Both the position numbers and the translations under genes were made by a program. A stretch of DNA of 64,000 nt from Achromobacter dolens (GTDB lineage Bacteria; Pseudomonadota; Gammaproteobacteria; Burkholderiales; Burkholderiaceae_B), in NCBI RefSeq assembly GCF_902859745.1, contig NZ_CADIJW010000002.1:62001-126000 (forward strand), read 5' to 3'. The notes beneath the pieces are model-generated. The model saw only the letters and a program-made list of their open reading frames with translations, did not search any database and was not told the DNA's origin. This document shows, one piece after another, positions 2,172-24,659 of this stretch (positions are counted from its first letter, which is position 1; each line of letters begins with the position of its first letter).

Positions 2172-4856
2172 TCACGCCACCGGCATGCGCTCGCACAGCT
2201 CGCCGATGGCCGCGAGATCGCCCAGCCGCGCCAGGCGCTGCACCTGCTGGCTGAAATCCGTAAAGGCCGGATCGCGCGCCTGCACGGCGCGCGCCCAATC
2301 CATCAGGTCCGAAATGCCGCCGATGTCCAGCAGGCGCCGCACCTGTTCCAGTTCGGCGCGCGACAGGCGCGGCATCGGCGACGGCGCCGGGGCCGGCTCG
2401 CCGGCCGTCGAAGGCATCGGCAGATGCAGCAGCCGGCCCAGCAAGTGGCGCAGCTCAACCAGATTGATGGGCTTGAGCAGGCTGGCGTCATAGCCAACGC
2501 CGTCCAGGGCCGCGGTCTCCTGCGGCGTGGCAGATACCGCCACCACCGGCAGGTCCGGCCAGCGCGCGCGGGCCGCGCGCAGCACGGCCGAGCCGTCGGC
2601 GCCTTCCATGCGGTGATCGGTCAGGATCAGGTCGGGCCGGCGCGCGTTATCGGCCTGGATGCGCGCCACCATGCCGCGGCCGTCCGCCTCGCTTTCCACC
2701 TGGAAGCCCAGGCTGGCCAGTTCCTCGACCAGGAACTCGCGGATTTCCGGCGTGTCCTCGGCCAGCCAGATGCGACGCCCGGATCCGTCGAGCTGGGGCA
2801 GCACATGCGCCGCGGCGGCGATGTAGTGATGCGACACGCCCGATTCGTCCACCTGCCTGACCGGCAGCGACACGCTGATGGTGGTGCCCTGGCCGACTTC
2901 GCTGTCGACGTGGATGCGGCCATTCATGCGCTGCACCCATTGCTGGACGATGGCCAGGCCTAGCCCGACGCCGGGCTGGCTCTCGGCCGCGCCCAGCCGC
3001 TGGAACGGTTCGAAGATGTGCTGCCGGTCCGCGGGCGCGATGCCGCACCCGGTATCGCGCACCGACAGCGTCAACCAGCCCGTGGCTTCGCCCGCGCCTG
3101 GAGCGGCATAGTCCGCCGTCAGTGTCAGCACGCCGCCGCGCGTGAACTTGGCGGCATTGTCGATGAGATTGGACAGCACCTGCCGCACTCGCTTGCCGTC
3201 CATCTCCAGCACGGCCGGCAGCGCGTCCGCCACCCGCAGCTCGAAACGGTTGTCCTGTCGCGCCGCGATCGGCGCGGATTCCTTGGCCACGGTGTCGAGC
3301 AAGGCGTGCACGTACTCGGGCGCCAGGCGCAAGGCCTGGCCGTCCGCGCCGGCGGCGTAGTCGATCAGGTCGTTCACCATGCCCAGCATGTGGTCGGCGC
3401 TGCGGCGGATGACGGCGCCGCGCGGCGCGTCGTCGCGGCCGCCGGCCTGGATCAGGTCGGCGAAGCCGATGATCGAGGTCAGCGGCGTGCGCAGGTCGTG
3501 GCTGATGCGCGCCAGGAAGTCCTGGCGCACGCGGCCGGCCTCGTCGGCCAGGATCAATGCCGCCTGCAGCGCCTGGGTGCGCTCGGTGACGGCCTGATCC
3601 AGTCGCTGGTGTTCGCGTTCGCGCGCCTGCGCCAGTTCGCGCTGGGCCGCCAGCCGTTCCTGGCGATGCTGGCGCGAACGGCCATGCAGCAGCACGGCCA
3701 GCATCAGCGACACAGACAGCAGATCCCAGGCGACTTCCGGCCCGCCGATCCAGCGGCCCGGCAGCAGGCCCTGGATATAGGCCACGCGCAGGAACAGGCA
3801 GGAACAATAGATCGCAAACGACAGCAGGAAGATGCGCGCATTGGCATGGCCGCGGCGCCAGCCGTCCGCCATGGACACCAGCCATACCAGCGCCCACAGG
3901 AAGATCAGCCCGATCAGCGCCTGCGCCGCTTCGCGGTAGTCGCCCAGCGCGGCCCAGACCGCGCCGGCCACGCCCGCGGCGATCAGCGCCAGATAGACCC
4001 GGCGCCAGATGCGCACCCGATGCAGGTCGGCGAACAGCATCGCCATCAGCCCGAACAGCGACGCCGCCAACGTCGCCAGGACGCTGGGCGCGCGCAGCAC
4101 CAGTTCGCCGCCGCCGGTCAATACATACCGATACAGCAGCCCCTGGAACGACAGGCTGTAGAGGATTTCGACGAAGATGGCGCAGGACAGCAGCAGGTAG
4201 ACCGGATCGCGCTGGGCCGCGCCCAGCACCCCGGCATACAGGCCCACCATCATGAGCGCGCCGATCAGCAGCGCCACCACCATGGTGTTGCGCTGGGTCA
4301 CGCCGACGAAGGCCGCGGGCGTGCGCAGGGTGGGCTCCATGCTGATGGCCGAACGGCTCTGCACCCGCACCAGCACCGTCATGCGCTGGCCCGGTTCGAG
4401 CCGCAGCGGCACCACGGACACCGTGGCCGGCACCTCGCGCCGCGCCAGCGGCTCGCGGTTGCCCGCCAGCAGAATGCCGGAAGGCTGCCGCTGCCCCGGC
4501 GCGAACAGATAGAAGCGCACGTCCTCCAGCCGCGGCACGCCGAACGAAAGCCAGCGCTCCTGGGCGCGGTCGGAGGTATTGCTGACCTCCAGCCTGAGCC
4601 AGAACGCCGAGGCGGAATATCCCCGGTTGAGCCAGCGGGCGGTCACCGGCTGCCAGGCGCCGTCCAGGACCTGGCTGGCATTCTGATCGCCGGCCTTGTC
4701 CTCGATGCCCCGCAGCTCGCCGACCAGCGGCAGGGTGCCGCCCACGGTGCTCAGATCGATCACGGGCTGGGCATCCTGCCCGCGCGCGGGCAGGCTCAGG
4801 CAGGACAGGGCCAGCCACAGCAACCAGGCCAGCCAGCCCAGGCGACGGTCAGGCAT
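2172..4856 (-). CDS. Hybrid sensor histidine kinase with 7TMR-DISM sensor and receiver domain
   Basis: This is an 894-residue inner-membrane kinase. In order: signal peptide (about 1-25), a periplasmic 7TMR-DISMED2-like beta domain (about 30-170), seven hydrophobic segments (about 185-390), a coiled coil, a HisKA domain with His453 in ISHDLRTPL, an HATPase with the N box (NLIDNAAKF) and G boxes (DTGCGIAP, GVGLGLAIV), and a receiver domain whose acceptor is Asp747 in LTDHRMEG. The last 80 residues are helical and are not a recognisable Hpt. DISMED2 domains are thought to bind carbohydrates. The ATG at 4856 overlaps the end of the response-regulator gene by 8 bp, so the two are translationally coupled. 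The upstream in-frame ATG at 4940 would add 28 residues before the signal peptide and is less likely. Confidence 0.9.
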   Translation of the reverse strand: MPDRRLGWLAWLLWLALSCLSLPARGQDAQPVIDLSTVGGTLPLVGELRGIEDKAGDQNASQVLDGAWQPVTARWLNRGYSASAFWLRLEVSNTSDRAQERWLSFGVPRLEDVRFYLFAPGQRQPSGILLAGNREPLARREVPATVSVVPLRLEPGQRMTVLVRVQSRSAISMEPTLRTPAAFVGVTQRNTMVVALLIGALMMVGLYAGVLGAAQRDPVYLLLSCAIFVEILYSLSFQGLLYRYVLTGGGELVLRAPSVLATLAASLFGLMAMLFADLHRVRIWRRVYLALIAAGVAGAVWAALGDYREAAQALIGLIFLWALVWLVSMADGWRRGHANARIFLLSFAIYCSCLFLRVAYIQGLLPGRWIGGPEVAWDLLSVSLMLAVLLHGRSRQHRQERLAAQRELAQAREREHQRLDQAVTERTQALQAALILADEAGRVRQDFLARISHDLRTPLTSIIGFADLIQAGGRDDAPRGAVIRRSADHMLGMVNDLIDYAAGADGQALRLAPEYVHALLDTVAKESAPIAARQDNRFELRVADALPAVLEMDGKRVRQVLSNLIDNAAKFTRGGVLTLTADYAAPGAGEATGWLTLSVRDTGCGIAPADRQHIFEPFQRLGAAESQPGVGLGLAIVQQWVQRMNGRIHVDSEVGQGTTISVSLPVRQVDESGVSHHYIAAAAHVLPQLDGSGRRIWLAEDTPEIREFLVEELASLGFQVESEADGRGMVARIQADNARRPDLILTDHRMEGADGSAVLRAARARWPDLPVVAVSATPQETAALDGVGYDASLLKPINLVELRHLLGRLLHLPMPSTAGEPAPAPSPMPRLSRAELEQVRRLLDIGGISDLMDWARAVQARDPAFTDFSQQVQRLARLGDLAAIGELCERMPVA

Positions 4857-5664
4857 GGGGATCCTGCTCCTGGCGCAAGGCGGTGGGCGCCATGCCGAAA
4901 CGCTCGCGGAAAGCGGTGGAAAAATTGCCGCGGTTGCCATACCCCACCGCCTGCGAAATGGCCTGGATGTCCAGGCCGGTCTCGCACAGCAGGCGGCGCG
5001 CCTCGCGCATGCGCTCTTCGCGCAGGAACTCGAACACGGTGGTGCCCGCGCAGCGGCGGAAAGCCTGGTTCAACCGACGGGCGTTGGTGCCCAGCGCCTG
5101 GGCCAGGGCCACCAGCTCGGGCGTGTGGTCGAGCCGTTCGCGCAGCAGCTTGCGCGCGGCGCGGAACAGCACGCCGTCGAGCGACGCGCCGGTGGCGGCG
5201 GACGACGCCCCGTCCTCGGCCGGCTTGGCGGGCGGCGTCGCGGCCAGCACGGGCGCCACCCGCAGATGTATCAGCAGGCGCAGGCGCACTTCCTCGAAAT
5301 CGAACGGCTTGGCGACGTAATCGACCGCGCCCGCCGACAGCCCCGCCACCCGCTCGGCCGGCAGGGCGGCAGCGGTCAGGAAAATGATCGGAATGGCGCG
5401 CGTGGCCTGATCGGCCTTCAGCAGCCGGCAGGCCGCCAGGCCGTCGCAGCCCGGCATGTTCACGTCCATCAGGATGATGTCCGGCTGCACCAGTTGCGCT
5501 TTGCGGTAGCCGTCGTTGCCATCCTCGGCCACGTAGACCCGGCAGTCCTGGCTGGTCAGGAAATCCACCAGCAGCATGCGGTCCTCGGGCCGGTCCTCGA
5601 CGACCAGCACGCGCAAGCCGGCAAGCTGGCCCGGGATAAGCGGATGGGAAGCGGCGTCATTCAT
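4849..5664 (-). CDS. Response regulator with receiver and AraC-type DNA-binding domain
   Basis: The 271-residue protein starts with a CheY-like receiver: the acidic pair in VLVVEDRPED, the phosphoacceptor Asp67 in ILMDVNMPG, the Thr in FLTAAA and the Lys in YVAKPFDF. A 40-residue Ala/Pro linker leads to an AraC/XylS two-HTH domain (about 165-268), with the second HTH and signature in ISQAVGYGNRGNFSTAFRERFG. Receiver-AraC fusions are transcription activators that usually bind direct repeats. The gene is the first of a two-gene operon with the hybrid kinase and is divergent from the tpsB-tpsA operon, the obvious candidate target. The ATG at 5664 is preferred over upstream ATGs (to 5793), which would add a low-complexity leader before the receiver. 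Confidence 0.9.
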   Translation of the reverse strand: MNDAASHPLIPGQLAGLRVLVVEDRPEDRMLLVDFLTSQDCRVYVAEDGNDGYRKAQLVQPDIILMDVNMPGCDGLAACRLLKADQATRAIPIIFLTAAALPAERVAGLSAGAVDYVAKPFDFEEVRLRLLIHLRVAPVLAATPPAKPAEDGASSAATGASLDGVLFRAARKLLRERLDHTPELVALAQALGTNARRLNQAFRRCAGTTVFEFLREERMREARRLLCETGLDIQAISQAVGYGNRGNFSTAFRERFGMAPTALRQEQDPHA

Positions 5665-5748
5665 GCCGCGCATTCTTTCATGCCGAGGCAGGGGCGCGTT
5701 GGTAACAAGCGACGAAACCGTGCCGGGTTTGTGAATATTTTTCCTTTT

Positions 5749-5776
5749 GGCAAACGTGCCGTGCATTCCGGCAAAC
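5749..5776. promoter_or_regulatory. Direct repeat GGCAAAC x2, 21-bp period
   Basis: GGCAAAC occurs at 5749-5755 and again at 5770-5776. The 21-bp period is two DNA turns and equals the spacing of AraC I1/I2 half-sites. The flanks also partly agree (TT two bases before, T after). It lies 85 bp upstream of the AraC-type response regulator and about 310 bp before tpsB. Binding by that regulator is inference. Confidence 0.4.
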
Positions 5777-5935
5777 CTCTCAATCGCAATCATTATTCAC
5801 ACATGATAGTGTTTGTTACATTGAGCAATCTGCCGGAAGGGTGGGTTCTTCGTCGACCCGAACCACCGCAACGCCTCGCGATGACCACATCCCGACGACA
5901 CCTGGACACCACGCCGGCACGCTCCCTCTTCTGAC

Positions 5936-5951
5936 GCATCCGCAAGGATGC
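5936..5951 (+). other. GCAA-tetraloop hairpin upstream of tpsB
   Basis: GCATCC and GGATGC (6-bp perfect stem) enclose a GCAA loop, a GNRA-type tetraloop that is very stable as RNA. No U-tract follows, so it is not a standard terminator. It would form only if transcripts begin upstream of 5936, giving tpsB a leader of at least 149 nt. Confidence 0.4.
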
Positions 5952-6084
5952 CATTGCCCGGCCAAGAATCCCGCAGTGTCGGGGAGTTGTAAAGAACTTT
6001 AGAAATTCCGTTTATTGATGTTTACGAAATATATCAAATAGCTTCGTTTAATTCTGATTGTAACGAATCATCACTTACGTATCC

Positions 6085-7815
6085 ATGCGCCGTCCAGCCC
6101 AACCCCGCCCCGCCGTCCTCCGCCAGCCCCCTTTCTCCCTACGCGCCGGCTTTGCCGCCGTGGTGCTGGCGCTCGCCGCCGGGCCGGTTGCCGCCCAGAA
6201 CGTGCAGTTGCGCCTGCCGTCAGGCGCCGAACCCGGCCGCCAGTTGCCGCAACCCGTCCTGCCGGAAAGCGCCCCCGCCGCACCGCCGGTGACGGTGCAG
6301 CAAGGCGGCGCCACGGAAGCGCCCGCCGGCGCCGACAAGCTGACCTTCACGCTGACCGACATGCGCGTGGAAGGCGTGACCCGCTACCCGGCCGATTCGC
6401 TGCGCCCGCTCTACCAGGGGCTGGTCGGCAAGACGATCACCGTCGCGGACGCCTTCAAGGTGGCCAACGAGATCGAGCTGCGCTACCGCAACGACGGCTA
6501 CGTCACCACGCGCGTGATCGTGCCGGCGCAGACCATCGATGACGGCCGCTTCCGCATCATGGTGGTCGAGGGCTACATCGCCGACGTCAAATATGACGGC
6601 GACATCGGCCCGGCGCAGGCGGCGGTCGAGAAGCTGGTGCAGCGCCTGCGCGGCGTTCGTCCCATCAACGTGGCGGAAGTCGAGCGCCAGTTGCTGCTCG
6701 CCAACGACCTGAACGGCCTGACCGTGCGCGCCTCGCTGGAAGCCTCGCCCACGGAAGTGGGCGGCTCGGTGCTGGTGGTGCGCAGCGAACGCAAGGCGGT
6801 CGACGCGCGCCTGGGCATCGACAACCGCGCCTCGCCCTACCTGGGCTGGAGCGAAATGACCGGCCAGGTCACGCTGAACTCGTTCGGCGGCCGCGCCGAC
6901 AGTCTCACCCTGACCGGCCGCGTGGGCTTCCCGGCCTACCGCAGCAAGGCCGTGGGCGCCAACTACAACATGCTGGTGTCCGACAGCGGCACGACGGTCG
7001 ACGTGGCCGCCAGCTACGCCAAGAGCGAGCCGGGGCGCGAACTGGCTCCGTTGAACGTCGCCAGCGACGTGCAGGCCTATTCGGCCACCGTCACCCATCC
7101 GCTGATCCGGTCGCGCCTGGAGAACCTGCGCGCCTTCGGCATGCTCGACGTGCGCAACGTCGCCACCGACATTGTCGAAACCCCCTTCACGCGCGACCGC
7201 CTGCGCGTGCTGCGCGCCGGCCTGAGCTATGACCGCACCGACAGTTGGAATGGCATCACCGCCGTGCGCGGCACCGTGCACCAGGGCCTGGACGCGATGG
7301 GCGCCTCCAAGGAAGGCAACGAGCTGGCCTCGCGCGCCAAGGGCCGCCCGGACTTCCTCAAGCTCACCGCCGAACTGACCCGCCTGCAGCAGTTGTCCGA
7401 CCGCTTCAGCCTGGTGGCCACCTTCGCCGGCCAGTACAGCGCCAGCCCGCTGCTGGCCAGCGAGGAATTCGCCCTGGGCGGCCCCAACTTCGGCCGCGGC
7501 TACGACGACGGCGAAATGTCGGCCGACTCGGGCGTGGCCGCGTCGCTGGAACTGCGCTATGCCATCTCCACCGACCGCTTCCTGCCCAGCGGCGCGCACG
7601 TCTACACGTTCGTGGACGGCGGCCACATCTGGTCGCGCAGCGAAAGCGCGCCGCTCACGCGCGCCAAGCTGTCCTCCTACGGCGCCGGCATGCGCGCCAA
7701 CCTGACCAAAAATCTGTACGCCACGATCGAAGTGGCCAAGCCCATGAGTTCCGACGTCCTGACCCAGGGCAACAAAGATCCCCGCGTGTTCTTCAGCCTC
7801 TCGGCCCAGTACTAA
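6085..7815 (+). CDS. TpsB outer-membrane transporter, FhaC/ShlB family
   Basis: The 576-residue protein is the probable export pore for the adjacent giant TpsA. It has a signal peptide (about 1-37, ending VAAQ), a Pro/Ala-rich stretch that corresponds to the helix plug and linker region of FhaC (about 40-85), two POTRA repeats (about 85-240, beginning FTLTDMRVEGVTRYP), and a 16-strand ShlB-type barrel to the end. The conserved L6 tip motif is present as Arg471-Gly-Tyr473 within GGPNFGRGYDDGE. The chain ends in an aromatic residue (FFSLSAQY), as expected for BAM-assembled barrels. It is the first gene of the secretion operon, 24 bp before tpsA. The region before the ATG at 6085 lacks a clear ribosome-binding site. 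Confidence 0.95.
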   Translation: MRRPAQPRPAVLRQPPFSLRAGFAAVVLALAAGPVAAQNVQLRLPSGAEPGRQLPQPVLPESAPAAPPVTVQQGGATEAPAGADKLTFTLTDMRVEGVTRYPADSLRPLYQGLVGKTITVADAFKVANEIELRYRNDGYVTTRVIVPAQTIDDGRFRIMVVEGYIADVKYDGDIGPAQAAVEKLVQRLRGVRPINVAEVERQLLLANDLNGLTVRASLEASPTEVGGSVLVVRSERKAVDARLGIDNRASPYLGWSEMTGQVTLNSFGGRADSLTLTGRVGFPAYRSKAVGANYNMLVSDSGTTVDVAASYAKSEPGRELAPLNVASDVQAYSATVTHPLIRSRLENLRAFGMLDVRNVATDIVETPFTRDRLRVLRAGLSYDRTDSWNGITAVRGTVHQGLDAMGASKEGNELASRAKGRPDFLKLTAELTRLQQLSDRFSLVATFAGQYSASPLLASEEFALGGPNFGRGYDDGEMSADSGVAASLELRYAISTDRFLPSGAHVYTFVDGGHIWSRSESAPLTRAKLSSYGAGMRANLTKNLYATIEVAKPMSSDVLTQGNKDPRVFFSLSAQY

Positions 7816-7839
7816 TCCGCGACAGAAAAGCGACCGACC

Positions 7840-10800
7840 ATGACTCGTCAATCCCGCATCCTCGCCCAATCCGCCCGCCGCCAGGCCCTGAAGGCCCCGC
7901 CCCTGCCCGCGCTCACCACCATGGCGATGGTGATCGGCTCGCTGGTCTCCGGCGGCGCCCACGCCAACCCCACCGGCGGCAACGTCGTGGCTGGCGGCGC
8001 GACCATCAATGACCGCGGCAACGGCACGCTGGACATCAACCAGTCGACCGGCAAGGCGATCATCAACTGGAAGGGTTTCAGCATCGGCGCCAACGAGACG
8101 GTCAATTTCCGTCAGCCGGGCAGCAACAGCGTCACGCTGAACCGCGTGGTCGGCAATGATCCGTCGGCCATCTTCGGCCGCCTCAACGCCAACGGCAACG
8201 TGATCCTGGTCAACCCGAACGGCGTGCTGTTCGGCAAGGGCGCGCGCGTGGACGTGGGCGGACTGGTCGCCACCACCGCCAACATCAGCGACAAGGACTT
8301 CCTGGCCGGCAAGTACAAGTTCGACCAGCCCTCGTCCAAGGCCAATGCCATGATCGTGAACGAAGGCACGATCAGCATCAAGGACAGCGGCCTGGCGGTG
8401 CTGGTGGCGCCGGCGGTGCGCAACTCGGGCGTGATCGAGGCCAAGCTGGGCCGCGTGGCCCTGGCCGGCGCAAAGACCGTCACGGTCGACTTCCACGGCG
8501 ACGGCCTGCTGAGCTTTGACGCCACCTCGGCCGTCAGCGAGCTGCCCAAGGACGCCGATGGCAAGCCGGTCTCGGCCCTCGTCGCCAACAACGGCGTGAT
8601 CCGCGCCGACGGCGGCACGGTGCTGATGACGGCGCGCGCGGTCAAGGGCGTGATCGACAACGTGGTCAACACCGACGGCATCGTCAGCGCCAAGGCGGTG
8701 GGCACGCAGAACGGCAAGATCGTGCTGTCCGGCGGCGACGCCGGCACGGTCAATGTGGCCGGCACCGTCGAGGCCACCGGCGTCAACGCCGGCGAGCGTG
8801 GCGGCAAGGTGGTGGTGACCGGCGAACACGTCAACGTGGCGCGCGGCGCCGCGATCGACGTGTCCGGCGCGGCCGGCGGCGGCGAGATCGCGCTGGGCAG
8901 CCAGGGCGTCGCGCCTGACGACGGCTCGGCCGCGTTCAGCGGCAAGTCGTCGACCGTGAAGGTGGCGGCGGGCGCCACCCTCAAGGCCGACGCGCTCGTC
9001 AGCGGCAACGGCGGCAACGTCACCATGTGGTCCAACGACGCCACCGCATTCGCCGGCAGCCTGTCGGCGCGCGGCGGCGCGCAAGGCGGCGATGGCGGCT
9101 TCGCCGAAGTCTCCAGCAACAAGAACATCGGCCTGACCGGATCGGCCGACCTGCGCGCGCCCAAGGGCAAGACCGGCCTGCTGCTGATCGACCCGACCGA
9201 CCTGCGCATCGTCGACTCCGCCAGCGGCGGCGGCTCGCAGGACGGCGCGGCCGGCGACGGCACCATCAACGGCGGCGACGCCAACACCGCCAACAACACC
9301 GTGTCGCGCGGCCTGCTCGAAAGCCTGGCCGGCACCACCAATATCAAGCTGGAAGCCACCGGCCAGATCACGGTCGCGGACATGGCCGCGATCAACCTGA
9401 AGACCACCGCCGGCCACAGCTTCACGATGCGCTCGACCCAGACGGGTGGCATCCGCTTCGAGAACTCGAACACCGAGATCAGCACCCAGGGCGGCTCCAT
9501 CACGCTGGAAGCGCTGGGCGTGGGCAGCACGCTGGACAACATCGGCAAGCTGACCAGCCGCGGCGGCGCGATCACGCTGAACGCCACCGGCGACATCAAC
9601 CTGGCCAACGTCATCAATGCCGGCAACGGCGCGGCGCAGATCCGCACCAGCGCCGGCTCGATCCGCAATACCGGCGGCGCCAACCAGGTGGTGGCGGGCA
9701 GCACCGTCAAGCTGGACGCCAGCGGCGGCAGCATCGGCGACCTGGCCGCCCCGGTCAATACCCAGACGGCGCTGCTGTCGCTGGCGACCGGCGGCAACCT
9801 GGCGGTGGCCAACCGCCAGGCCCTGACGTCGCTGGACATCACCAGCCGCCACGCGCAACCGGGCGTCAACAACAGCTTCCTGCTGACCTCGCCGGACTTG
9901 GCCTTCGCGCTGCAGGACAACGGCGGCTACCAACTCAACACCGTCAACCAGTCGGCCCTGCACTTCTCGTTCACCGGCGACCGCACCATCACCGTCGGCG
10001 ACGTGGCCCTGGGCACCGGCACGCTGGCGCTGACGTCGACGGCCGGCCATATCTACGGCACGGCCGGCGGCCTGCTGAACGCCAACCAGGTCACGCTGAG
10101 CGCCGCCGGCAGCGACGGCCGCAACGGCGCGATCGGTTCGTCCGCGCAGGCCCTGCGCATGCAGACCGTGGGGTTGACCGCCACCAGCGGCACCGGCGGC
10201 ATCTATGTGAACGGCCTGGGCTCGCTGAACCTGAAGGCAATCGACACCACCGGCAACCTGGCCATCCAGACCACCGCCACGCTGACCTTGGGCGATATCA
10301 AGGCGGGCGGCGCCGCCGCGCTGACATCGATGCTCGGCAGCATCGTCGACGACGGCAACGACGCCACCAGCATTTCCACCTCGTCGCTGACGCTGTCGGC
10401 CGCGCAGGGCATCATCGGCAACGCCGCGCGCGCCCTCAAGACCAACGCCAGCACCCTGTCCGCCACCGCGGGCGCGGGCGGCGTCTACCTGGACAGCTCC
10501 AGCGCCAACCTGAACATCACACAGGCGCAGGCCGACGGCGGACCCGTCACGATCACGGGCGCGGGCAGCGTCTCGGCCAACAACGTCAGCTCCGGCGGCG
10601 GCGCCATCAACCTGACCGGCAACAGCATCGCCGCCGGCCAGATCAACGCGGGCGCCGGCAATGTCACGCTGACCGCGCGCGCCGGCAGCATCACCGGCAC
10701 GTCGGCCTCCCTGATCACCGGCAACGTCGTCACCCTGCTGGCCCCGGCCGCCAACACCAGCTACACCGTCGGCACCGCGGGCACCTACCTGCGCACCGCC

Positions 10801-16800: not shown

Positions 16801-19800
16801 ATCCTGTACGGCGGCGGCACGCTCTCGGGCGCGGGCGCCGGCGCCATCACGCTGACGGCGCAGAACGGTATCGGCACGCGCGACGCGGCCATCAAGATCG
16901 CCGCGCCCAACAGCCCGGTGTCGGCCACCGTCACCGGCGACGGCTCGCTCTACCTGGAGAGCAGCGGCAACCTGCTGGGCGGCCTGACGACCTCGGTCGC
17001 CAATGGCGAGACGCGCATCACCGGCAACGGCAGCCTGGCGCTGACCAGCGTCACCTCTGGCACCGACGCCACCGGCAACGACATCTCGGTCAAGACCACC
17101 TCGGGCAACATCACGGTCAAGAACGTGCAGGCCGGCGCCAACCACGGCCAGGTCACGCTCAACGCCGAGAACGGTTCGATCCTGGCCGACGCGGCCGGCG
17201 CCACCGTCAAGGCCTACGGCGTGGCGCTCAACGCCGCCAACGCCATCGGCGCCAGCAACGGCCGCATCAACGCGACCGGCCAGCGCGTCGAAGCCACCAC
17301 CAGCGGCGGCATGTACCTGGCGGCGGACAACAACTCCGTCTACTCCTACCTGTCGGGCAACATCATCGACATCGCCGCCGCCGGCAATCTGCAGATCGCC
17401 AACGCGATCTCGTCCAATGGCGCGATCAAGATCACCGGCAACGGCGCCAACAGCCAGTTGGTGGCCGGCAACATCGACGCCGGCGCCGGCAGCGTCAACA
17501 TCGACTTCAGCAAGACGGGCAGCACCATCGTCGACGACCGCGAGGACTCCACGCGCATCATCGGCAACAACGTTGTGCTCAAGGCCGGCGCGGGCATCGG
17601 CGGCGCCGCCGGCTCGCCCGACAACCTGCAGACGACCGCCGCCAACATCACCGCCGAAGTCACCGGCGCGGGCTCGATCTACCTGAACGACAACCGCGCG
17701 GCCGGCACCACGCTGGCGTCGGTCATCACCCAGAACGGCGCGATCGGTATCACCACCGCCGGCCCCACCCTGGTCACCAGCGCCATCAGCCGCAACGGCT
17801 CGGCCAGCAACAACATCTCGATCGCCACCACCAGCGGCGACCTGTCGGTGAACACGATCGACGCCTCGGCGGGCGGCGACATCAGCCTGAATGCGGCCGG
17901 CTCCATCCTGGGCGCGGTGGCCAACAACCTGGTCCTGGGCAACACGCTGACAGCCGTCGCCGGCGGCAGCATCGGCTCGGCCGCCTACCCGGGCAATGGC
18001 TCGGGCGGCATCGCGCTGCGCACCAACCTCGGCGCCCTGGGCAACCTGTCGACCGCCGCCGACGGCGCGGTCATCGTGGTCAACAACATCGGCACGCGGG
18101 CCCTCAGCGCCAACAGCGGCAACATCCAGCAGAGCGGCGCCATCAGCTCGGTCTACCTGACCACGGCCGGCGACCTGGACGCCAGCGGCGGCATGTCGAA
18201 CACCGCCGCCAACCTGCTGCTGTCCTCGGGCGGCAAGCTGACGCTGGCCAGCGCCGGCGTGCAGGCCAACGGCACCATCACGCTCAAGGGCACGCAGGAC
18301 GTGGTGGCCGCCGGCGCCACGCCGCGCACGATCAACGTCAAGGGCACCACGCTGAATTTCAGCAGCGGCGCCGCGGGCGGCAACACCACGCTGGCGACCG
18401 AGGCCCGCACCATCGGGGCCAGCCTGACCGGCACCAGCACGCCGGCCAACCTGACGCTGACCAACACCGGCGCGCTCGACGCGTCGCTGAGCGCCGCCAA
18501 CGGCGACATCAGCGCCACGGCCACCGGCTCGCTGAACGCCTCGGCCACCGCCGTCGGCAGCAACCGCACCATCGCGCTGACCTCGCAGCACGGCGATGTC
18601 GAGATCGGCATCGTCAACGCCGGCGCCGCCAGCGGCACCGTGATCCTGAGCGCCGCCGAGGGCTCGCTGCTGGGGCTGGACAACACCCTCATGGCCAACA
18701 GCCTGGACCTGACCAGCAAGACCGGCATCGGCACCCAGGCCGACCACTTCACCACGTCGGCCCGCAATCTCAAGGCCAACGTGCTGGGCAGCGGCGACAT
18801 CTATGTGGACGCCTCCGGTCCGTTGACGCTGGGCCGCGTCGCGACGGCCGACGGCAACATCGGCATTGCCTCCGCCGGCAACCTGGCGAGCACGGTCGGC
18901 CTGTCGGCCGGCAACCGCGGCGACGTCGCGCTGGCCTCCACCGCCGGCAACGTCACCGTCAGCCACGACATCGCCAGCGCCGACGTGCATGACCTGTCCG
19001 TGAGCGGCGCGGCCATCGCCATGGCCGCCGCCAACACCAGCGGCAGCCAGACCTACACCGGCAACGTCACCCTCAACGGCGACCTGACCGGCAGCGCCAT
19101 CGGCATCACCGGCAACGCCACGCTGGCCGGCGGCAAGCGCACCCTGACGGCCAACGGCGCCAACGGCGGCGTCGCCCTCTCGGGCGCGCTGAACGGCGGC
19201 GCGCAGCAGGCCGTGATCGTGGCCGACGACGGCGACGTCACGCTGGGCGGCAATGCCTCCAACCTGGCCAGCCTGACCATCACCGGCAACAACATCGACC
19301 TGCGCCAGGTCGCCACCACCGGCGCTCAGCAGTACAACGGCGCCACCACGCTGCGCGGCGCGTACACCACCGCCAACGGCGCCTTCGGCGTCGACGGCGC
19401 CACCACGCTGGCCAGCACCGTGAGCGTGACCACCGGCAGCGGCGCGGTCGCCTTCACGGGCGCCGTGTCGGGCGCCAACGCGCTGACCGTCACCAGCAGC
19501 GGCACCACCACCTACGGCGGCGCGGTCGACATCGCCTCGCTCAACCAGGCGGGCACCGGCGACACGGCCATCAACGGCGGCAGCGTCACCACCAGCGGCA
19601 CGCAGACCTACGTCGGCCACGTGACGCTGGGCGACGATGCGGTGCTGACCGGCACCACCGTCACCCTGGCCAACGGCGCCGACGGCGCCCATGCGCTGGA
19701 AATCGACGGCACGGCCCTGCTGACCGGCGCCATCGGCGCCACCACCAAGCTGGCCAGCCTGACGCTGGACGGCGCCGCCACGCTCAATGCGGGCAGCATC

Positions 19801-22500
19801 GCCACCACCGGCAACCAGCGCTACAAGGGCGCCGTGACGCTGAGCGGCGATCACACGCTGAGCACCACCACCGGCGGCGTGGCCTTCGACGGCGCGCTGG
19901 ACGGCACGCATGACCTGCACGTCGTGTCCACGGCCGGCGGCGACGTCAGCTTCGACGCGGTCGGCAGCGCCACGCAACGCCTGGGCAGCCTGACGGTCGA
20001 CACGGCCGGCACGACCGCCTTCAATGGTTCGGTCTACGCGGCATCGGTGCAGACCGACGACCCGGGCGCCGTGACCATCACGGGAGAGCGCGTCGACACC
20101 ACTGGCGTCATGCGATTCGGCGAGCTGGTCACGCTGGGCGGCAACGTCACGCTCAAGGGCGCCAGCGTCACCCTGGCCGGCGGCGCGAACTCGACCGACG
20201 AGGGCCAGGGCCTGACCATCGAAGGTCCGGCCACGATCAACGGCCCGGTGGGCGCCGGCGCCAATGGCCGCCTGGCCTATCTGACCGTCGACGGCGACGC
20301 GACGCTCGGCGGCGGCCCGCTCAAGACGGTGGGCGAACAGTCCTACCTGGGCAAGGTCGAACTGTCCGGCAATGCGCAACTGAGCACCGCCGACGCCAAG
20401 GTGACCTTCAACGATACGGTCACCAGCGGCAACGGCAGCGGCCTGACGGTCAGCAGCGGCAGCGGCGACGTGCGCTTTGCCGAACAGGTCGGCGACGCCG
20501 CCACGGGCCGCCTGGGCGCCCTGGCCGTCAACAGCAACGGCGCCACCACCTTCGAGAAGGCCGTGTACGCCGCGTCGGTCAACACCGACGCGGGCGGCAC
20601 CTTGGCCATCAACGGCGGCCTGATCGACACCACCGGCACGCAGTCCTATGGCGAACGCGCCGTGTTCAGCACCGACACCGTGCTCAAGGGCAGCACCGTC
20701 AGCCTGCTGGGCGGCGGCGACGGCAAGCACGACCTGACCATCGACGGCAATGCCGTGCTCAAGGGACCGCTGGGCGCCAATGATCCGCTGGCCAGCCTGA
20801 CGGTCACGGGCAACGCCACGCTGGGCGCCGGCAGCATCGTCACCGACGGCGAACAGTCGTACCAGGGCAATGTGACCGTGGGCGGCAACGTCTCGGTGAC
20901 CAGCCGCCAGGGCGACATCGGCTTCGACCGCGCGGTCGATGGCGGCCACGGCCTGACGGTCGTCGCCAACCAAGGCGAAGTGACCTTCTCCGGCCCGGTC
21001 GGCCAGGGCTCGCGCCTGGGCGACCTGAAGGTCAGCGCCGCCGGCGACATCGTGCTGGACGGCCCGGTGCGCGCCGCCTCGGTGCAGACCGGCGGCAATG
21101 GCGACGTGCTGATCAACGGCGGCTCGGTGGACACCACCGGCACGCAGCAATACGGCCAGCACGTCATCCTGAGCGGCGTGGACACCACCCTGACCGGCGC
21201 CAACGTGCAGCTCAAGGCCGGCGTCGACGGCACCCAGCCGGGCCAGCAAGGCCTGGTCATCGTCGGCAACGCCGATATCCAGGGCGACGTCGGCGCCACC
21301 ACGCCGCTGCGCAGCGTGGCCGTCACGGGCGCCACCACCCTGGGCGGCGGCAAGACGCACACCACCGGCGACCAGGTCTACAACGGCGCCGTGACGCTGA
21401 AGGGCGACCGCGACCTGACCAGCGACACCGGCTCGGTGATCCTGGGCAGCAAGCTGGATGGCGGCAACGGCAACAACCTGAACGTCAACGCCGGCAAGAA
21501 CATCCAGGTCGCGGGCGACGCCACCGGCCTGGGTTCGCTGACCCTGCGCGCCGTCGACACCATCGTGTTCAACGGCGACGTCAGCGCCTACCGTGTGCAG
21601 CAGTTGGAGGCCAAGTCCGCCAGCTACAACGGCGCGGTGCGCGCCTCCGGCCCGGACGGCATCGACATTTCGGGCGGCACGCTGTCATTTGGCAAGAACG
21701 TCACCGCCGACACGGGTTCGATCCGCATCGCCAATACCAGCCCGACCGGCACCACGTCCTTTGGCGCGGGCAGCACCGTGAAGGCCGCCACCGGCTTCAC
21801 CCAGACCGGCGGCGCCGGGCTGACGCTGCCGGCGCAATTGCTGGTGACGCAGGGCCCCATCAACCTGGGCGCGCCGGCGAAGCTGCAAGGCGGCAACGCG
21901 GTCATCCAGACCAACGGCGACATCACCGCCATCGGCCTGAGCGGCCCGCAGACCTCGCTGACGCTGGCCTCCGGCGTGGGCGCGCTGCGCATCGGCCTGA
22001 ACGACGCGGATCCGAGCCACAAGCTGAACGTGGCCGGGCTGACCGTGCAGAACGCCGGCTCCGCCGACATGTGGGGCGCGATCGGCGGCAAGACCGGCTC
22101 CATGGCCGCCACCACGATCCGCAGCTCGCTGGCCGGCGCGCCGTACTTCATGAACGGCGCCGCCTGGGGCCAGACGGACGTGATCGACCGCCTGGCGGCG
22201 GTCACGGCCCCGCGCTCGGTGATCCCCAGCACGCCCACCGCCAACCCGCTGTTCCAGGGCACCGTGCCGTCCAAGGGCTTCGGCCCCGACGTGCTGGGCG
22301 CCTTCGCCGATCCGCAGGTGCTGACGGTGGCCTCGGCCTTTTCCTGGCAACTGCCTTCCGGCGACAATGCGGTCTTGACCGTGCCGACCGGCAACCACCC
22401 GGTGCTGCAAACCCCGGGCGGCAACCCACAACGCCCCGCCGTCGAAGGCGCCGCCGACGACGCGCGCCGCGACACCGACATCCAATCCCGTACTCTCTGA
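7840..22500 (+). CDS. Giant TpsA exoprotein, filamentous-haemagglutinin-type adhesin, 4886 aa
   Basis: This is the secreted partner of TpsB. Residues 1-42 form a long signal peptide ending in GGAHA, without the ESPR motif of some large autotransporters. Residues about 43-290 are the TPS secretion domain that nucleates the beta-helix; the diagnostic NPNGVLFGKGARV follows an NxNGNVILV strand. A KTGLLLIDPTDL segment (about 445) marks the start of the stalk. The stalk is beta-strand repeats of two kinds: a 130-140-residue class (about 660-2870) and a 168-177-residue class (about 3917-4500), listed separately. The C-terminal 150 residues are Pro/Gly-rich, with no autotransporter barrel, LPXTG-like anchor or cysteine pair. 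The size exceeds FhaB of Bordetella pertussis (about 3590). Base composition and codon use match the neighbouring genes. A role in adhesion or biofilm is inferred from the family; a toxic C-terminal domain of the CdiA kind is not seen. Confidence 0.93.
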   Translation: MTRQSRILAQSARRQALKAPPLPALTTMAMVIGSLVSGGAHANPTGGNVVAGGATINDRGNGTLDINQSTGKAIINWKGFSIGANETVNFRQPGSNSVTLNRVVGNDPSAIFGRLNANGNVILVNPNGVLFGKGARVDVGGLVATTANISDKDFLAGKYKFDQPSSKANAMIVNEGTISIKDSGLAVLVAPAVRNSGVIEAKLGRVALAGAKTVTVDFHGDGLLSFDATSAVSELPKDADGKPVSALVANNGVIRADGGTVLMTARAVKGVIDNVVNTDGIVSAKAVGTQNGKIVLSGGDAGTVNVAGTVEATGVNAGERGGKVVVTGEHVNVARGAAIDVSGAAGGGEIALGSQGVAPDDGSAAFSGKSSTVKVAAGATLKADALVSGNGGNVTMWSNDATAFAGSLSARGGAQGGDGGFAEVSSNKNIGLTGSADLRAPKGKTGLLLIDPTDLRIVDSASGGGSQDGAAGDGTINGGDANTANNTVSRGLLESLAGTTNIKLEATGQITVADMAAINLKTTAGHSFTMRSTQTGGIRFENSNTEISTQGGSITLEALGVGSTLDNIGKLTSRGGAITLNATGDINLANVINAGNGAAQIRTSAGSIRNTGGANQVVAGSTVKLDASGGSIGDLAAPVNTQTALLSLATGGNLAVANRQALTSLDITSRHAQPGVNNSFLLTSPDLAFALQDNGGYQLNTVNQSALHFSFTGDRTITVGDVALGTGTLALTSTAGHIYGTAGGLLNANQVTLSAAGSDGRNGAIGSSAQALRMQTVGLTATSGTGGIYVNGLGSLNLKAIDTTGNLAIQTTATLTLGDIKAGGAAALTSMLGSIVDDGNDATSISTSSLTLSAAQGIIGNAARALKTNASTLSATAGAGGVYLDSSSANLNITQAQADGGPVTITGAGSVSANNVSSGGGAINLTGNSIAAGQINAGAGNVTLTARAGSITGTSASLITGNVVTLLAPAANTSYTVGTAGTYLRTAAGVLNATGGSIYLNQAQGSVLLDDLKANNGIFVTGVANLSANMLDAGTGTLSLNAQGGSIVRANANSALAGSSILLQAQQHIGTASDHLTTATTSLTLGSGGDIYVDNPAKTLTYLAITNSHADPARRNTIQVAAPFLNFDVNDDLGNAYELRQVYSSLLSQFSFTGDQSLKLGNLRAGSNITLVSNQGSILDDGIADTRVTANNVSLRAAQDIGTSANFVAVNAPGLTLDTRGNLYATDIADLTSLTVYARHKDVDDRYTLDVRAPSLLFNITDDVGGHTIHEVRDSNWVNFSFNSDRDITVGSIDAGYSGSITLNAAGDLRDDGNKQTRLLANSVNLSAGKAVGATGTGYLDVLTGYLSGTASNGGFYVQLPNPTGYANYTGIVTLNNITASDAVQIDLRQGDALLAGTVRSNAGNVTLNVANGSLYGSGGGVYAGANDITLSAAGTIGGVYGGTLRYVGVGAAGQANVQATAGTDIYLNGTTGNIKLTRLQAGSGQIGYTQSSGTTTIGSLSAGGAATLANSGGSLLDDGDAATVIRASNIALTAGGAIGAAGAALTLQAPDVSLTSGGNIAVDSLTGLTRLNVTRNGTANGVYGITAPNLTAFTLTDDGLGIHLTDIASSTNLDFGFTANNKNLLVGNIDAGANGKVSLASAQNISNDNPASPGVIRAATVALTAGSNGSIGSSITGGTLALSGTSALSLTAGNNMYVGSDTVLRNLTINSLKNAGSASTFAIGGGAGQVITLSDDGTTQYLEQVTGGLTDFSFSGRKNIQVGAITATNSVSLTTAGGGVYSSITSDGGTGRITAGSVTLSATGSDSYTARDANTGAIGAGSRALRLSTSNLAITNNGDINLNNGGLALNSLNLYLSRRDAGSSANFDTNSYAFGNLGSQSLTIGGGTNLSIGASMSGAALTINTDTAITANAINTGSGSVSLTSRYANTDLAPTIGGSGLITGNNVSLSALGTNGSVSAQTSASNLSIASAGNVSVANNKALTALSLTANHNSSSGSINNTYNISASGMTAFSLSDSTGVAGLTLNNITNTGNLALSISSDRALTVNNVSTAAGGSVTLASNGTIYGNSSSASSPNITTGALTLNAGSVTGTYATNQPLFVSVDSLSSNVRGSLWVSNNKNLTLLDNSATSSAQVNVTNGSITQGAGRFVTPVLTLTATQSIGAAGNAMQTDTRQLTTQSGGNLYVNNASDLFSLNITANHANSAVDNVVQVAAKGLTFNVTDAGVYTMTEVSDLTGLNFSFNGDRTLYVGNVDVGPANTVSLGAFGSGAHILNLTPTSHITGDVVTLGASGQIGVASGDNSGSIHTTTGELYLTAGSHVYLDNDRDLASLSLYATGSSAATYQILSNELLFDVAHDGSRLQVNEVRDNTGLNLMLSSNVGQDIGIIDTTQNGTVRLSSNNSILGSADDSQRVTAASVQITTQGSGAIGAVGREINLSAPLVNIQNAGDVYIDSDRHIDALTLYSTGNSARSYGITSPTRDGGNIVFEATDGGSGSSAGLVLTKVEDAGGLNLSVTSDRNITVGAINVGYDNVALYSRGGSLLGDGDANSKIDAAGLTLTAANAIGAAGTGNAIDTRVSTLSGRADNGGAFITVEGNTSLPSLTSTGASSVGNTLGDIELGTVNTNGNAFSVNNTGGSILSGTINNATTVNLTANGSIGNKSAIRTNALNGGTTTVTLSATKTDRADGSIALNETYGLQATSVTAAGDITLAADTGSNGRNLTVGTVTSTDGAVTLSTARGSITGINNSNLVTGKSVNLTANYGTAATIGASNSARLHLNTGKLTMATPGSIYVDNLADLSDLTIIRNNAQGSNLGSAGFLTIDAQNLTFSGADTGNVTALTIVRDTTGLNFTYQAVGAINVHDIDVTQNGSVTLSTNPYYYTGGSIQGMNASSKIVAGDLTLSTGSGDTPNTIGSSSLALNTQVKNIAATASGGIWLKQTGSINLGNLRAGGDLSVTTTTGDILVGTVSYGTGNALTLNAQTGSILYGGGTLSGAGAGAITLTAQNGIGTRDAAIKIAAPNSPVSATVTGDGSLYLESSGNLLGGLTTSVANGETRITGNGSLALTSVTSGTDATGNDISVKTTSGNITVKNVQAGANHGQVTLNAENGSILADAAGATVKAYGVALNAANAIGASNGRINATGQRVEATTSGGMYLAADNNSVYSYLSGNIIDIAAAGNLQIANAISSNGAIKITGNGANSQLVAGNIDAGAGSVNIDFSKTGSTIVDDREDSTRIIGNNVVLKAGAGIGGAAGSPDNLQTTAANITAEVTGAGSIYLNDNRAAGTTLASVITQNGAIGITTAGPTLVTSAISRNGSASNNISIATTSGDLSVNTIDASAGGDISLNAAGSILGAVANNLVLGNTLTAVAGGSIGSAAYPGNGSGGIALRTNLGALGNLSTAADGAVIVVNNIGTRALSANSGNIQQSGAISSVYLTTAGDLDASGGMSNTAANLLLSSGGKLTLASAGVQANGTITLKGTQDVVAAGATPRTINVKGTTLNFSSGAAGGNTTLATEARTIGASLTGTSTPANLTLTNTGALDASLSAANGDISATATGSLNASATAVGSNRTIALTSQHGDVEIGIVNAGAASGTVILSAAEGSLLGLDNTLMANSLDLTSKTGIGTQADHFTTSARNLKANVLGSGDIYVDASGPLTLGRVATADGNIGIASAGNLASTVGLSAGNRGDVALASTAGNVTVSHDIASADVHDLSVSGAAIAMAAANTSGSQTYTGNVTLNGDLTGSAIGITGNATLAGGKRTLTANGANGGVALSGALNGGAQQAVIVADDGDVTLGGNASNLASLTITGNNIDLRQVATTGAQQYNGATTLRGAYTTANGAFGVDGATTLASTVSVTTGSGAVAFTGAVSGANALTVTSSGTTTYGGAVDIASLNQAGTGDTAINGGSVTTSGTQTYVGHVTLGDDAVLTGTTVTLANGADGAHALEIDGTALLTGAIGATTKLASLTLDGAATLNAGSIATTGNQRYKGAVTLSGDHTLSTTTGGVAFDGALDGTHDLHVVSTAGGDVSFDAVGSATQRLGSLTVDTAGTTAFNGSVYAASVQTDDPGAVTITGERVDTTGVMRFGELVTLGGNVTLKGASVTLAGGANSTDEGQGLTIEGPATINGPVGAGANGRLAYLTVDGDATLGGGPLKTVGEQSYLGKVELSGNAQLSTADAKVTFNDTVTSGNGSGLTVSSGSGDVRFAEQVGDAATGRLGALAVNSNGATTFEKAVYAASVNTDAGGTLAINGGLIDTTGTQSYGERAVFSTDTVLKGSTVSLLGGGDGKHDLTIDGNAVLKGPLGANDPLASLTVTGNATLGAGSIVTDGEQSYQGNVTVGGNVSVTSRQGDIGFDRAVDGGHGLTVVANQGEVTFSGPVGQGSRLGDLKVSAAGDIVLDGPVRAASVQTGGNGDVLINGGSVDTTGTQQYGQHVILSGVDTTLTGANVQLKAGVDGTQPGQQGLVIVGNADIQGDVGATTPLRSVAVTGATTLGGGKTHTTGDQVYNGAVTLKGDRDLTSDTGSVILGSKLDGGNGNNLNVNAGKNIQVAGDATGLGSLTLRAVDTIVFNGDVSAYRVQQLEAKSASYNGAVRASGPDGIDISGGTLSFGKNVTADTGSIRIANTSPTGTTSFGAGSTVKAATGFTQTGGAGLTLPAQLLVTQGPINLGAPAKLQGGNAVIQTNGDITAIGLSGPQTSLTLASGVGALRIGLNDADPSHKLNVAGLTVQNAGSADMWGAIGGKTGSMAATTIRSSLAGAPYFMNGAAWGQTDVIDRLAAVTAPRSVIPSTPTANPLFQGTVPSKGFGPDVLGAFADPQVLTVASAFSWQLPSGDNAVLTVPTGNHPVLQTPGGNPQRPAVEGAADDARRDTDIQSRTL
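9817..16450 (+). repeat. Class A protein repeats in TpsA, about 130-140 residues each
   Basis: About ten diverged copies share the order L..L.I...HA (strand), a D.G.Y.L..V turn, then the hallmark NFSFxxDRxITVGxIDAG. Hallmark codons begin at 9964, 11287, 11677, 12685, 13096, 13945, 14563, 14965, 15382 and 16399. Adjacent copies are 390 bp (11287 to 11677), 411 bp (12685 to 13096), 402 bp and 417 bp apart. Six copies carry a downstream GS-xx-DDG-like turn. Copies differ widely in sequence, so the array is old. Confidence 0.75.
19588..21400 (+). repeat. Class B protein repeats in TpsA, 168-177 residues each
   Basis: Four copies begin at TTSGTQTY (19588), TTGVMRFG (20098), TTGTQSYG (20629) and TTGTQQYG (21133), giving periods of 510, 531 and 504 bp. 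Each copy runs through V.L..GA.V.L..G.DG...L.I.G.A...G.VGA, SL.V.G.ATLG, a TTG.Q.Y.G strand, F...VDGG.GL.V and SVYAASVQTD-type strands. They are better conserved with each other than class A copies are and share no clear motif with class A. Confidence 0.75.
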
Positions 22501-22509
22501 CCAGACACC

Positions 22510-23268
22510 ATGACGACGCAAACCTCGCTTCCCCTCTTCTACGAGCAACCCCGTCCGCTCGCCGCCGGCGCGCACGCCAACCTGTCGCTGGCCGGCAACA
22601 CCGGCTTCGCCTACGCCGCCAGGACCAACGCGGTGCCGCTGGTCGCCACCGAGCTGCCGACCGCGTGCCGCCACTTCCCCATCGTCTTCACCGATGGCGA
22701 ACAGCCCACGCCGGTCGCGGTGCTGGGCGTGCGCGGCCAGGAAAACCTGTTCGTCGACGCGCAGGGCCAATGGCGCCCCGGCACCTACATCCCGGCCTAC
22801 GTGCGCCGCTATCCCTTCATCTTCATGGAGAACGAAGACCGCAGCCAGTACACGCTGTGCGTCGACGAGAAGGCCGCCTCGGTGGTCGAAGGCCGTGACA
22901 ACCCGTTCTTCGACGAGGCCGGCGAGCCGACCGCGCTGGCCCGCAGCGCCCTGGAATTCTGCCGCGACTACCAGAACCAGCACGCCTACACGCTGGAATT
23001 CGCGCGCGCCCTGGCCGACGCCGACCTGCTGATCGAGAACCGCGCCGACATCACCCTGGCCGACGGCCAGCGCCTGGCCATGTCCGGCTTCAAGGTGATC
23101 GACGAAGCCAAGTTCAACAAGCTGCCGGAAGCGGAATTCCTGCGCTGGCGCGCCAATGGCTGGCTGCCGCTGGTCTATTGCCACCTGCTGTCGATCAACA
23201 CCTGGCCCAGCCTGATCGACCAGGTGCAGCCGGTCGCCGCGACCGAGGAAGCCGCCGCCGAGGCATGA
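22510..23268 (+). CDS. SapC-family protein
   Basis: The 252-residue protein matches the SapC family (Pfam PF07277), named after a gene of the Campylobacter fetus S-layer locus. Visible family features are HFPIVFTDG near residue 56, LGVRGQENLFVD, a YIPAYVRRYPFIF strand, the FFDEAGEPT loop, and a late LAMSGFKVIDEAKFNKLPEAEF followed by GWLPLVYCHLLSI. There is no signal peptide, so it is probably cytoplasmic. Its biochemical role is not established. It starts 9 bp after the tpsA stop, so it should be cotranscribed and perhaps coupled. That position beside a giant surface protein parallels the S-layer context of the family name. A cytoplasmic assembly, modification or regulatory role is inference. 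Confidence 0.85.
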   Translation: MTTQTSLPLFYEQPRPLAAGAHANLSLAGNTGFAYAARTNAVPLVATELPTACRHFPIVFTDGEQPTPVAVLGVRGQENLFVDAQGQWRPGTYIPAYVRRYPFIFMENEDRSQYTLCVDEKAASVVEGRDNPFFDEAGEPTALARSALEFCRDYQNQHAYTLEFARALADADLLIENRADITLADGQRLAMSGFKVIDEAKFNKLPEAEFLRWRANGWLPLVYCHLLSINTWPSLIDQVQPVAATEEAAAEA

Positions 23269-24650: not shown

Positions 24651-24659
24651 GGCGCGTCC

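Follow-up and report, generated by a model that had tools for sequence, protein, structure and literature searches.

A SapC-family protein as a possible third, cytoplasmic partner of giant two-partner secretion exoproteins: the tpsB-tpsA-sapC locus of Achromobacter dolens

To our knowledge, it is poorly understood how bacteria prevent chains of 5,000 to 13,000 residues from folding and hold them on their export path. Among two-partner secretion (TPS, type Vb) systems, made up of an exoprotein (TpsA) and an outer-membrane transporter (TpsB), FHA/FhaC of Bordetella has a giant FHA-type TpsA, and we know of no SapC partner in it. The sap locus of Campylobacter fetus, whose SapC is presumably the name-giver of the family PF07277, serves S-layer proteins via a type I route. 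One paper calls SapC a component of the Sap transporter (PMC3887049). HMW1ABC is a TPS operon with a third, cytoplasmic partner, a glycosyltransferase (PMC5422565, PMC3983070). Here we describe a locus of Achromobacter dolens in which a gene for a SapC protein (PF07277) directly follows those for a TpsB and a giant TpsA. It lies in a stretch of 64,000 nucleotides (contig NZ_CADIJW010000002.1, positions 62,001 to 126,000), hereafter called the window.

The TpsA of this locus carries an N-terminal TPS domain and its TpsB combines a POTRA stretch with an Omp85-type barrel, which places the pair among type Vb systems. With FHA/FhaC, found in the same bacterial family, the locus shares the giant FHA-type TpsA and the TpsB. 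With HMW1ABC and HMW2ABC of Haemophilus influenzae, it shares a TpsA, a TpsB and a third protein, acting or predicted to act in the cytoplasm, that are encoded together; the third partner of HMW1ABC is a GT41 glycosyltransferase, whereas here it is a SapC, from another family, so that the locus does not belong to the HMW1ABC type. The likeness to the C. fetus sap locus lies in a SapC encoded beside surface-protein genes, the two being set apart by description and not by sequence. Three-partner TPS systems themselves are already known and a third partner of this kind in TPS was not found in the literature searched, where no paper combined SapC and two-partner secretion; a preliminary description of the window, which knew of no described system with this composition, is borne out to that extent. 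No paper on the function of the PF07277 family was found in the same literature either (one paper mentions sapC once), and among the matches listed for SapC or PF07277 the titles concern saposin C, are unrelated or do not deal with the bacterial family.

We propose that the locus encodes a three-partner variant of type Vb secretion in which SapC would have a cytoplasmic role, acting on TpsA before or while it crosses the inner membrane, a reading to which we give a probability of about 0.5. The process could be viewed as follows: TpsB would export the giant, adhesin-like TpsA, and SapC, encoded just behind tpsA, would work on TpsA while it is still cytoplasmic or passing the inner membrane. 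As the type of transporter changes between loci while SapC stays, SapC would more likely contact the giant substrate than the transporter. From its gene context and sequence, SapC is most likely a cytoplasmic partner of giant exoproteins and perhaps a holding factor, which would hold or pace the giant unfolded chain so that it stays export-competent.

What evolution has preserved is the unit tpsB - giant tpsA - sapC. Among 200 genomes of the bacterial family, SapC of any kind was found in 62 (61 above cut-off), and SapC of the TPS class, defined by E <= 1e-60 to the SapC of the window, in 12, that of A. dolens included; a giant TpsA and a TpsB adjoin it in 10 of these 12. A scan of GTDB gave 73 named SapC loci, and in 35 of them SapC is immediately preceded, on its own strand, by a TpsA-like gene (one of them, from Spiribacter, was assigned by YDG/MBG-type repeats and lacks the conserved C-terminal domain described below). 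The genera include Achromobacter, Bordetella, Pollutimonas, Aquabacterium, Azospirillum, Nitrospirillum, Niveispirillum and Ferrovibrio, together with Pseudomonas argentinensis and Stutzerimonas kirkiae, and the order tpsB-tpsA-sapC recurs in alpha-, beta- and gammaproteobacteria; the plant-associated strain Azospirillum argentinense Az39 is one carrier of the module. An ShlB-type TpsB is encoded upstream, on the same strand and within 13–24 kb, in 30 of 35 such genomes, a count that leaves out locus L073 and adds L112, whose SapC was missed by the gene caller. Of the remaining five, four loci are cut by a contig edge or lie on a short contig (G206, G227, G233 and G234), and in Spiribacter the nearest TpsB is 36 kb off. 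The counts from the family sample and from the named genomes are not independent, since the two sets overlap (e.g. G098/G202, G176/G204 and G068/G205).

The SapC of the window matches PF07277 over model positions 3–220 of 220 (232.2 bits, cut-off 28.9). In a tree of 78 SapC proteins, 34 of the 35 TPS-linked ones fall into a single clade of 43 rows (support 100/97) that mixes alpha-, beta- and gammaproteobacteria. The nine other rows of this clade come from Pollutimonas harenae, from three Nitrospirillum genes beside TolC/HlyD/M50 and from five Azospirillaceae, the latter being close to TPS-linked copies and one of them standing at a contig start. SapC is probably cytoplasmic, as strongly hydrophobic segments are absent from its sequence (the highest mean over 19 residues is 1.02); this and the conserved gene unit support the earlier suggestion of SapC as a partner that the giant TpsA has in the cytoplasm. 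Its AlphaFold2 model has a predicted local distance difference test (pLDDT) score of 89 and gave no match in fold searches against the PDB; comparison with PDB sequences gave none or chance-level ones (best E 0.62), and family scans gave PF07277 alone in Pfam and nothing in NCBIfam. A phage origin of SapC was considered and rejected, PHROGs giving nothing for two SapC proteins and no viral fold match being obtained at E <= 0.001.

These searches bear on the main rival explanation, in which SapC would be a modifying enzyme: TpsA would be altered chemically in the cytoplasm ahead of its export, much as HMW1 is by the glycosyltransferase HMW1C. In both cases a TPS operon would supply a third partner working in the cytoplasm (PMC5422565, PMC3983070), and many polar or aromatic residues of SapC are strictly conserved (E48, N79, R100, Y101, C117 and S228 in 56/56, D119 and H225 in 55/56). 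However, Pfam, PDB sequences and fold searches point to neither an enzyme family nor an enzyme fold, and SapC, with 252 residues, is without a glycosyltransferase domain. Without any family or fold match, SapC was rejected as a glycosyltransferase or other known enzyme, and we regard a modifying role as unlikely.

The TpsA that precedes SapC ends in a conserved C-terminal domain (CTD), with motifs around APYFIN-TPWGP and PSTP-LF-GTV-PQVL, that has no match in Pfam and is conserved across three classes (mean column identity 51% in alignment A3). A profile made of 14 rows matched 10 of the 200 family genomes and 21 of 82 genomes around Azospirillum, with 24 and up to 59 candidates scored per genome, respectively, so that further copies may exist. 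All 31 matches lie on the same strand as a SapC match and 61–504 bp ahead of it, and the association holds for 22/22 once the nine matches in genomes that supplied profile rows are removed. Across 34 loci, SapC and CTD distances are correlated (Mantel r 0.85, a value reached in 0 of 2000 permutations), a correlation that is not decisive because linked inheritance alone would also produce it. The CTD is a concrete candidate for an interaction with SapC. At one locus (G288:C4:168170-169293), SapC lies inside an open frame of 1,313 residues adjoining a CTD in a frame of 373 residues; these frames look unusual.

Two further explanations turn on this C-terminus. SapC and the CTD might form a retention brake: with its end held back in the cell by SapC, TpsA would remain anchored at the cell surface until it is released. 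The part of TpsA that is conserved, and found only adjoining SapC, is indeed its C-terminus, and C-terminal release control is known for CdrA, as are proteolytic maturation and release for FHA (PMC5422565); however, six giant exoproteins of other kinds beside SapC are without the CTD, two genomes with a TPS-class SapC give no CTD match, and a brake seems decidedly unlikely. Alternatively, the C-terminus of TpsA would be a toxin and SapC its immunity protein, as in contact-dependent inhibition (CDI), the likeness with CdiBAI being a small gene directly behind that of a giant TPS exoprotein. Here, in contrast with CdiBAI, both the C-terminus and its partner are conserved across classes, the CTD across three of them and without abrupt variability; Pfam and NCBIfam found no toxin or VENN-type domain in TpsA, and SapC also occurs beside exoproteins without CTD and in orphan positions. 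The CDI explanation was thus rejected and we consider it highly improbable.

SapC as a cytoplasmic partner of giant exoproteins can also be examined beyond TPS. In plasmid records, 18 of 34 SapC matches were examined, without a matched control (the others were 6 from Azospirillum, 5 from Aminobacter and 5 more); 16 of the 18 were annotated and in 9 of these 16 a gene of 10,419–38,757 bp overlaps the displayed stretch (flanks of 6–20 kb). The giants near SapC are of FHA type in Thalassospira and in Azospirillum, where ShlB is also encoded, and of autotransporter type (5,368–7,174 residues) in Agrobacterium, Methylobacterium and Sphingobium. LEPR-XLL giants stand near SapC in Rhodobacteraceae M382, in divergent orientation, and in Pseudosulfitobacter, with HlyD and site-2 protease genes in between; an LktA-type adhesin with ShlB is found in Terrarubrum, and in Aminobacter a 12.5-kb gene without a name is separated from SapC by some other genes. 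Three more records, from R. rubrum, Gemmobacter and Sulfitobacter, show type I or repeat-protein genes near SapC. In the family genomes, a gene for at least 1,500 residues was found in 6 of 20 regions with non-TPS-class SapC, hand-picked for variety from 65 such places (L167 being counted although the gene caller had not called its SapC), against 1 of the 18 hand-picked control regions obtained out of 20 requested (Fisher one-sided p = 0.06). With ten CTD loci added, the numbers become 16/32 against 1/18 (p = 0.001), a test that is not relied on because the CTD loci were found through SapC. Three of the six regions with such a gene (L166, L168 and L173) share the order SapC, a protein of about 280–360 residues, one of about 530–590 residues and the giant; the last two are also present in L167. 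DUF4347 occurs in the giant of L168, the one that was scanned. In L180–L182, genes were read by eye as parts of a type I exporter.

Tentatively, SapC could be a route-independent, client-side factor, small, cytoplasmic and of an unrepresented fold, recruited repeatedly by type I, Va and Vb exporters of very large repetitive proteins, with the CTD evolving as a recognition domain in the TPS branch. A small family that often comes after such giants across three export routes would provide a handle on the export of giant chains, and the widespread SapC family would gain a testable role.

Several observations weigh against a general partnership of SapC with giant exoproteins. SapC is far commoner than the CTD (62/200 and 49/82 genomes, against 10 and 21), mostly away from any CTD match. 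In two family genomes (G105 and G083), a SapC 67–71% identical to that of the window is preceded by neither TpsA nor TpsB over about 24 kb, and the CTD profile matched nothing. Nine giants beside SapC were compared with the CTD profile and only the two TPS ones from Azospirillum and Thalassospira match; L175 and Terrarubrum, of TPS type by eye or annotation, fall below the threshold, as do five of other or unknown kind, including the Sphingobium giant, whose C-terminus lay outside the stretch compared. The CTD is therefore not a general docking site, as six giants of other kinds stand beside SapC without it. Four of the 16 annotated plasmid records (Thiodictyon, Marivivens, Mitsuaria and Sphingomonas) show no giant or type I-like neighbour, and SapC without a giant neighbour was also seen in Sphingopyxis, in Rhodocyclaceae and in UvrD-like/iron-transport contexts. 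Outside the TPS clade, the association, drawn from partial and hand-picked samples, is suggestive; taken generally, it is strong in places and absent in others. Binding, localisation and chaperone activity of SapC are putative.

Other arrangements were seen around SapC. The SapC proteins of L166, L167, L168 and L173 form a second class, with a giant that has an LEPR-XLL-like start. In L210 (NZ_CP085155.1), an LEPR-XLL gene of 38,757 bp (about 12,900 residues) stands ahead of genes for HlyD, a site-2 protease and SapC, and the order HlyD, M50-HlyD, SapC of Nitrospirillum L113 is similar. In Agrobacterium, Methylobacterium and Terrarubrum (L160, L162 and L207), a gene for 'invasion associated locus B' lies at most 6 kb from SapC and close to that of a giant exoprotein; in Terrarubrum a response regulator gene follows SapC. 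Another class of SapC (L171, L172, L177 and L184) precedes a gene for about 735 residues, helicase-like by eye, and three of these four loci are near apparent iron transporter genes of the ATP-binding cassette (ABC) type (by eye).

The features of the locus in A. dolens are given in Table 1. In the preliminary description, the tpsB-tpsA-sapC genes formed a five-gene block with a divergent gene pair for a sensor kinase and a regulator, and its coordinates and family assignments stand: all five reading frames are open, with an overlap of 8 bp in the pair and gaps of 24 bp (tpsB-tpsA) and 9 bp (tpsA-sapC), and domain scans agree with the five families. The kinase open reading frame (ORF) at its longest begins at 4940; an alternative start at 4856, codon 29, stands ahead of a hydrophobic stretch. 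The regulator ORF ends at 4849, so that with this start the two genes overlap by 8 bp. The kinase carries 7TMR-DISMED2, 7TMR-DISM_7TM, HisKA, HATPase_c and Response_reg, all five above cut-off, and can be classed as a 7TMR-DISM hybrid sensor kinase, in which the sensor and 7TM parts are combined with HisKA, HATPase_c and a receiver. TpsB matches POTRA_2 (66.1 bits), ShlB (91.3 bits) and Omp85 (39.7 bits), each above cut-off, with a single POTRA stretch reported.

Table 1. Features of the locus, in window positions (HTH, helix-turn-helix).
Feature	Position	Strand	Domains or source
7TM-DISM hybrid histidine kinase	2172..4856 (longest ORF to 4940)	-	Pfam domains
Response regulator with AraC-type HTH	4849..5793	-	Response_reg + HTH_18 (Pfam)
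tpsB upstream element TRTCAAATAGC-N16-TGTAAC	6032..6064	+	
TpsB, outer-membrane transporter	6085..7815	+	POTRA_2 + ShlB
Giant TpsA exoprotein, 4,886 aa	7840..22500	+	TPS domain, adhes_NPXG
TpsA C-terminal domain (CTD), about 103 aa	22024..22332	+	
SapC (PF07277), 252 aa	22510..23268	+	Pfam

The block recurs in three further genomes of the genus in the family sample (G098, G168 and G075) and is therefore not a product of chance. TPS adhesins of Bordetella are said to answer to BvgAS, a kinase/regulator type unlike that of the window. In BvgAS-type control, a BvgS-type sensor and a LuxR-type regulator act on the transcription of TPS genes, whereas the pair found here consists of a 7TM-DISM kinase and an AraC-type regulator; these domain types differ (Pfam), and TPS-SapC loci do not always include the regulator. 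The preliminary description had the pair as a dedicated circuit that senses a signal and turns on the TPS-SapC genes. Such a circuit would fit the four genomes of the genus, that of A. dolens included, in which the pair is divergent from and adjacent to TPS-SapC; in the other seven genomes of the genus, neither was found. In the 200 family genomes, with 12 candidates scored per genome, the regulator occurs at 76% identity or more in seven, and the same four (G000, G098, G168 and G075) carry the pair beside TPS-SapC. The other three set the pair apart from it: in Bordetella ansorpii (G068 and G176) it lies on a contig other than that of the TPS-SapC genes, and in G163 no TPS-class SapC accompanies it. 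At the three loci concerned (L061, L064 and L065 of G163, G176 and G068), the gene divergent from the regulator encodes a Clostridium_P47 (PF06597) domain, as detected by Pfam in G176 and G163 and by similarity in G068. In B. ansorpii, a chemoreceptor gene is also present at the kinase end of the pair.

Conversely, 6 of the 10 TpsB-TpsA-SapC loci of the family sample, read directly, are without the pair. A regulator is found at the locus in 4 of the 35 named TPS-SapC genomes, all Achromobacter (A. ruhlandii, A. insuavis, A. pulmonis and A. kerstersii; G200, G201, G202 and G211); in the other 31 no match was found there, with up to 73 candidates scored per genome. The TPS-SapC locus of A. insolitus (G203), which was read, has different genes upstream and no regulator, and no regulator match at E <= 1e-40 was obtained among 73 of the 109 candidates of that genome. 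Except for loci read directly, such absences are not proof, as part of the candidates was scored. The pair does occur unlinked from TPS-SapC, in three of the seven regulator-bearing genomes, which goes part of the way to refuting the circuit on the terms of the preliminary description. With this distribution, the five-gene block was rejected as a single conserved system: the sensor and regulator are neighbours and not defining parts, and the pair looks like a separate module added locally beside TPS-SapC in Achromobacter. Local control of the TPS genes by the pair in Achromobacter is possible; a dedicated circuit is doubtful.

The element upstream of tpsB bears on the same question. Similar versions, in which TGTAA follows TCAAAT at 25 bp, precede tpsB in G168, G075, G077, G100, G120 and A. 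insolitus; the element is partial in G098, has a different spacing in B. ansorpii and is reduced to its first half in Pollutimonas (G061). In the A. dolens genome, there is one perfect match, at tpsB, and three more with three mismatches, a number equal to that in the reversed control. The string TATCAAATA is also found upstream of the B. ansorpii regulators, where it resembles that upstream of tpsB, which makes a link between regulator and element possible. However, A. insolitus and others keep the element without a linked regulator, so that it cannot be taken as a sign that this regulator binds there, and it was rejected as proof of such binding.

The giant TpsA gave no match when scanned at full length with Pfam; the TPS domain PF05860 was detected when its first 500 residues were scanned alone (130.9 bits, cut-off 33.5), and NCBIfam recognised adhes_NPXG (TIGR01901, 79.9 bits, cut-off 29.1). 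A tandem-repeat search in tpsA gave just six rows, short and weak. TpsA contains no cysteine and has 105 N-glycosylation sequons, against a mean of 85 in shuffled sequence. The block is flanked by an O-methyltransferase gene on one side (1489-2157) and by genes for a BAAT-type acyl-CoA thioester hydrolase and TctC on the other (23352-25652); these flanking genes partly differ among the genomes of the genus.

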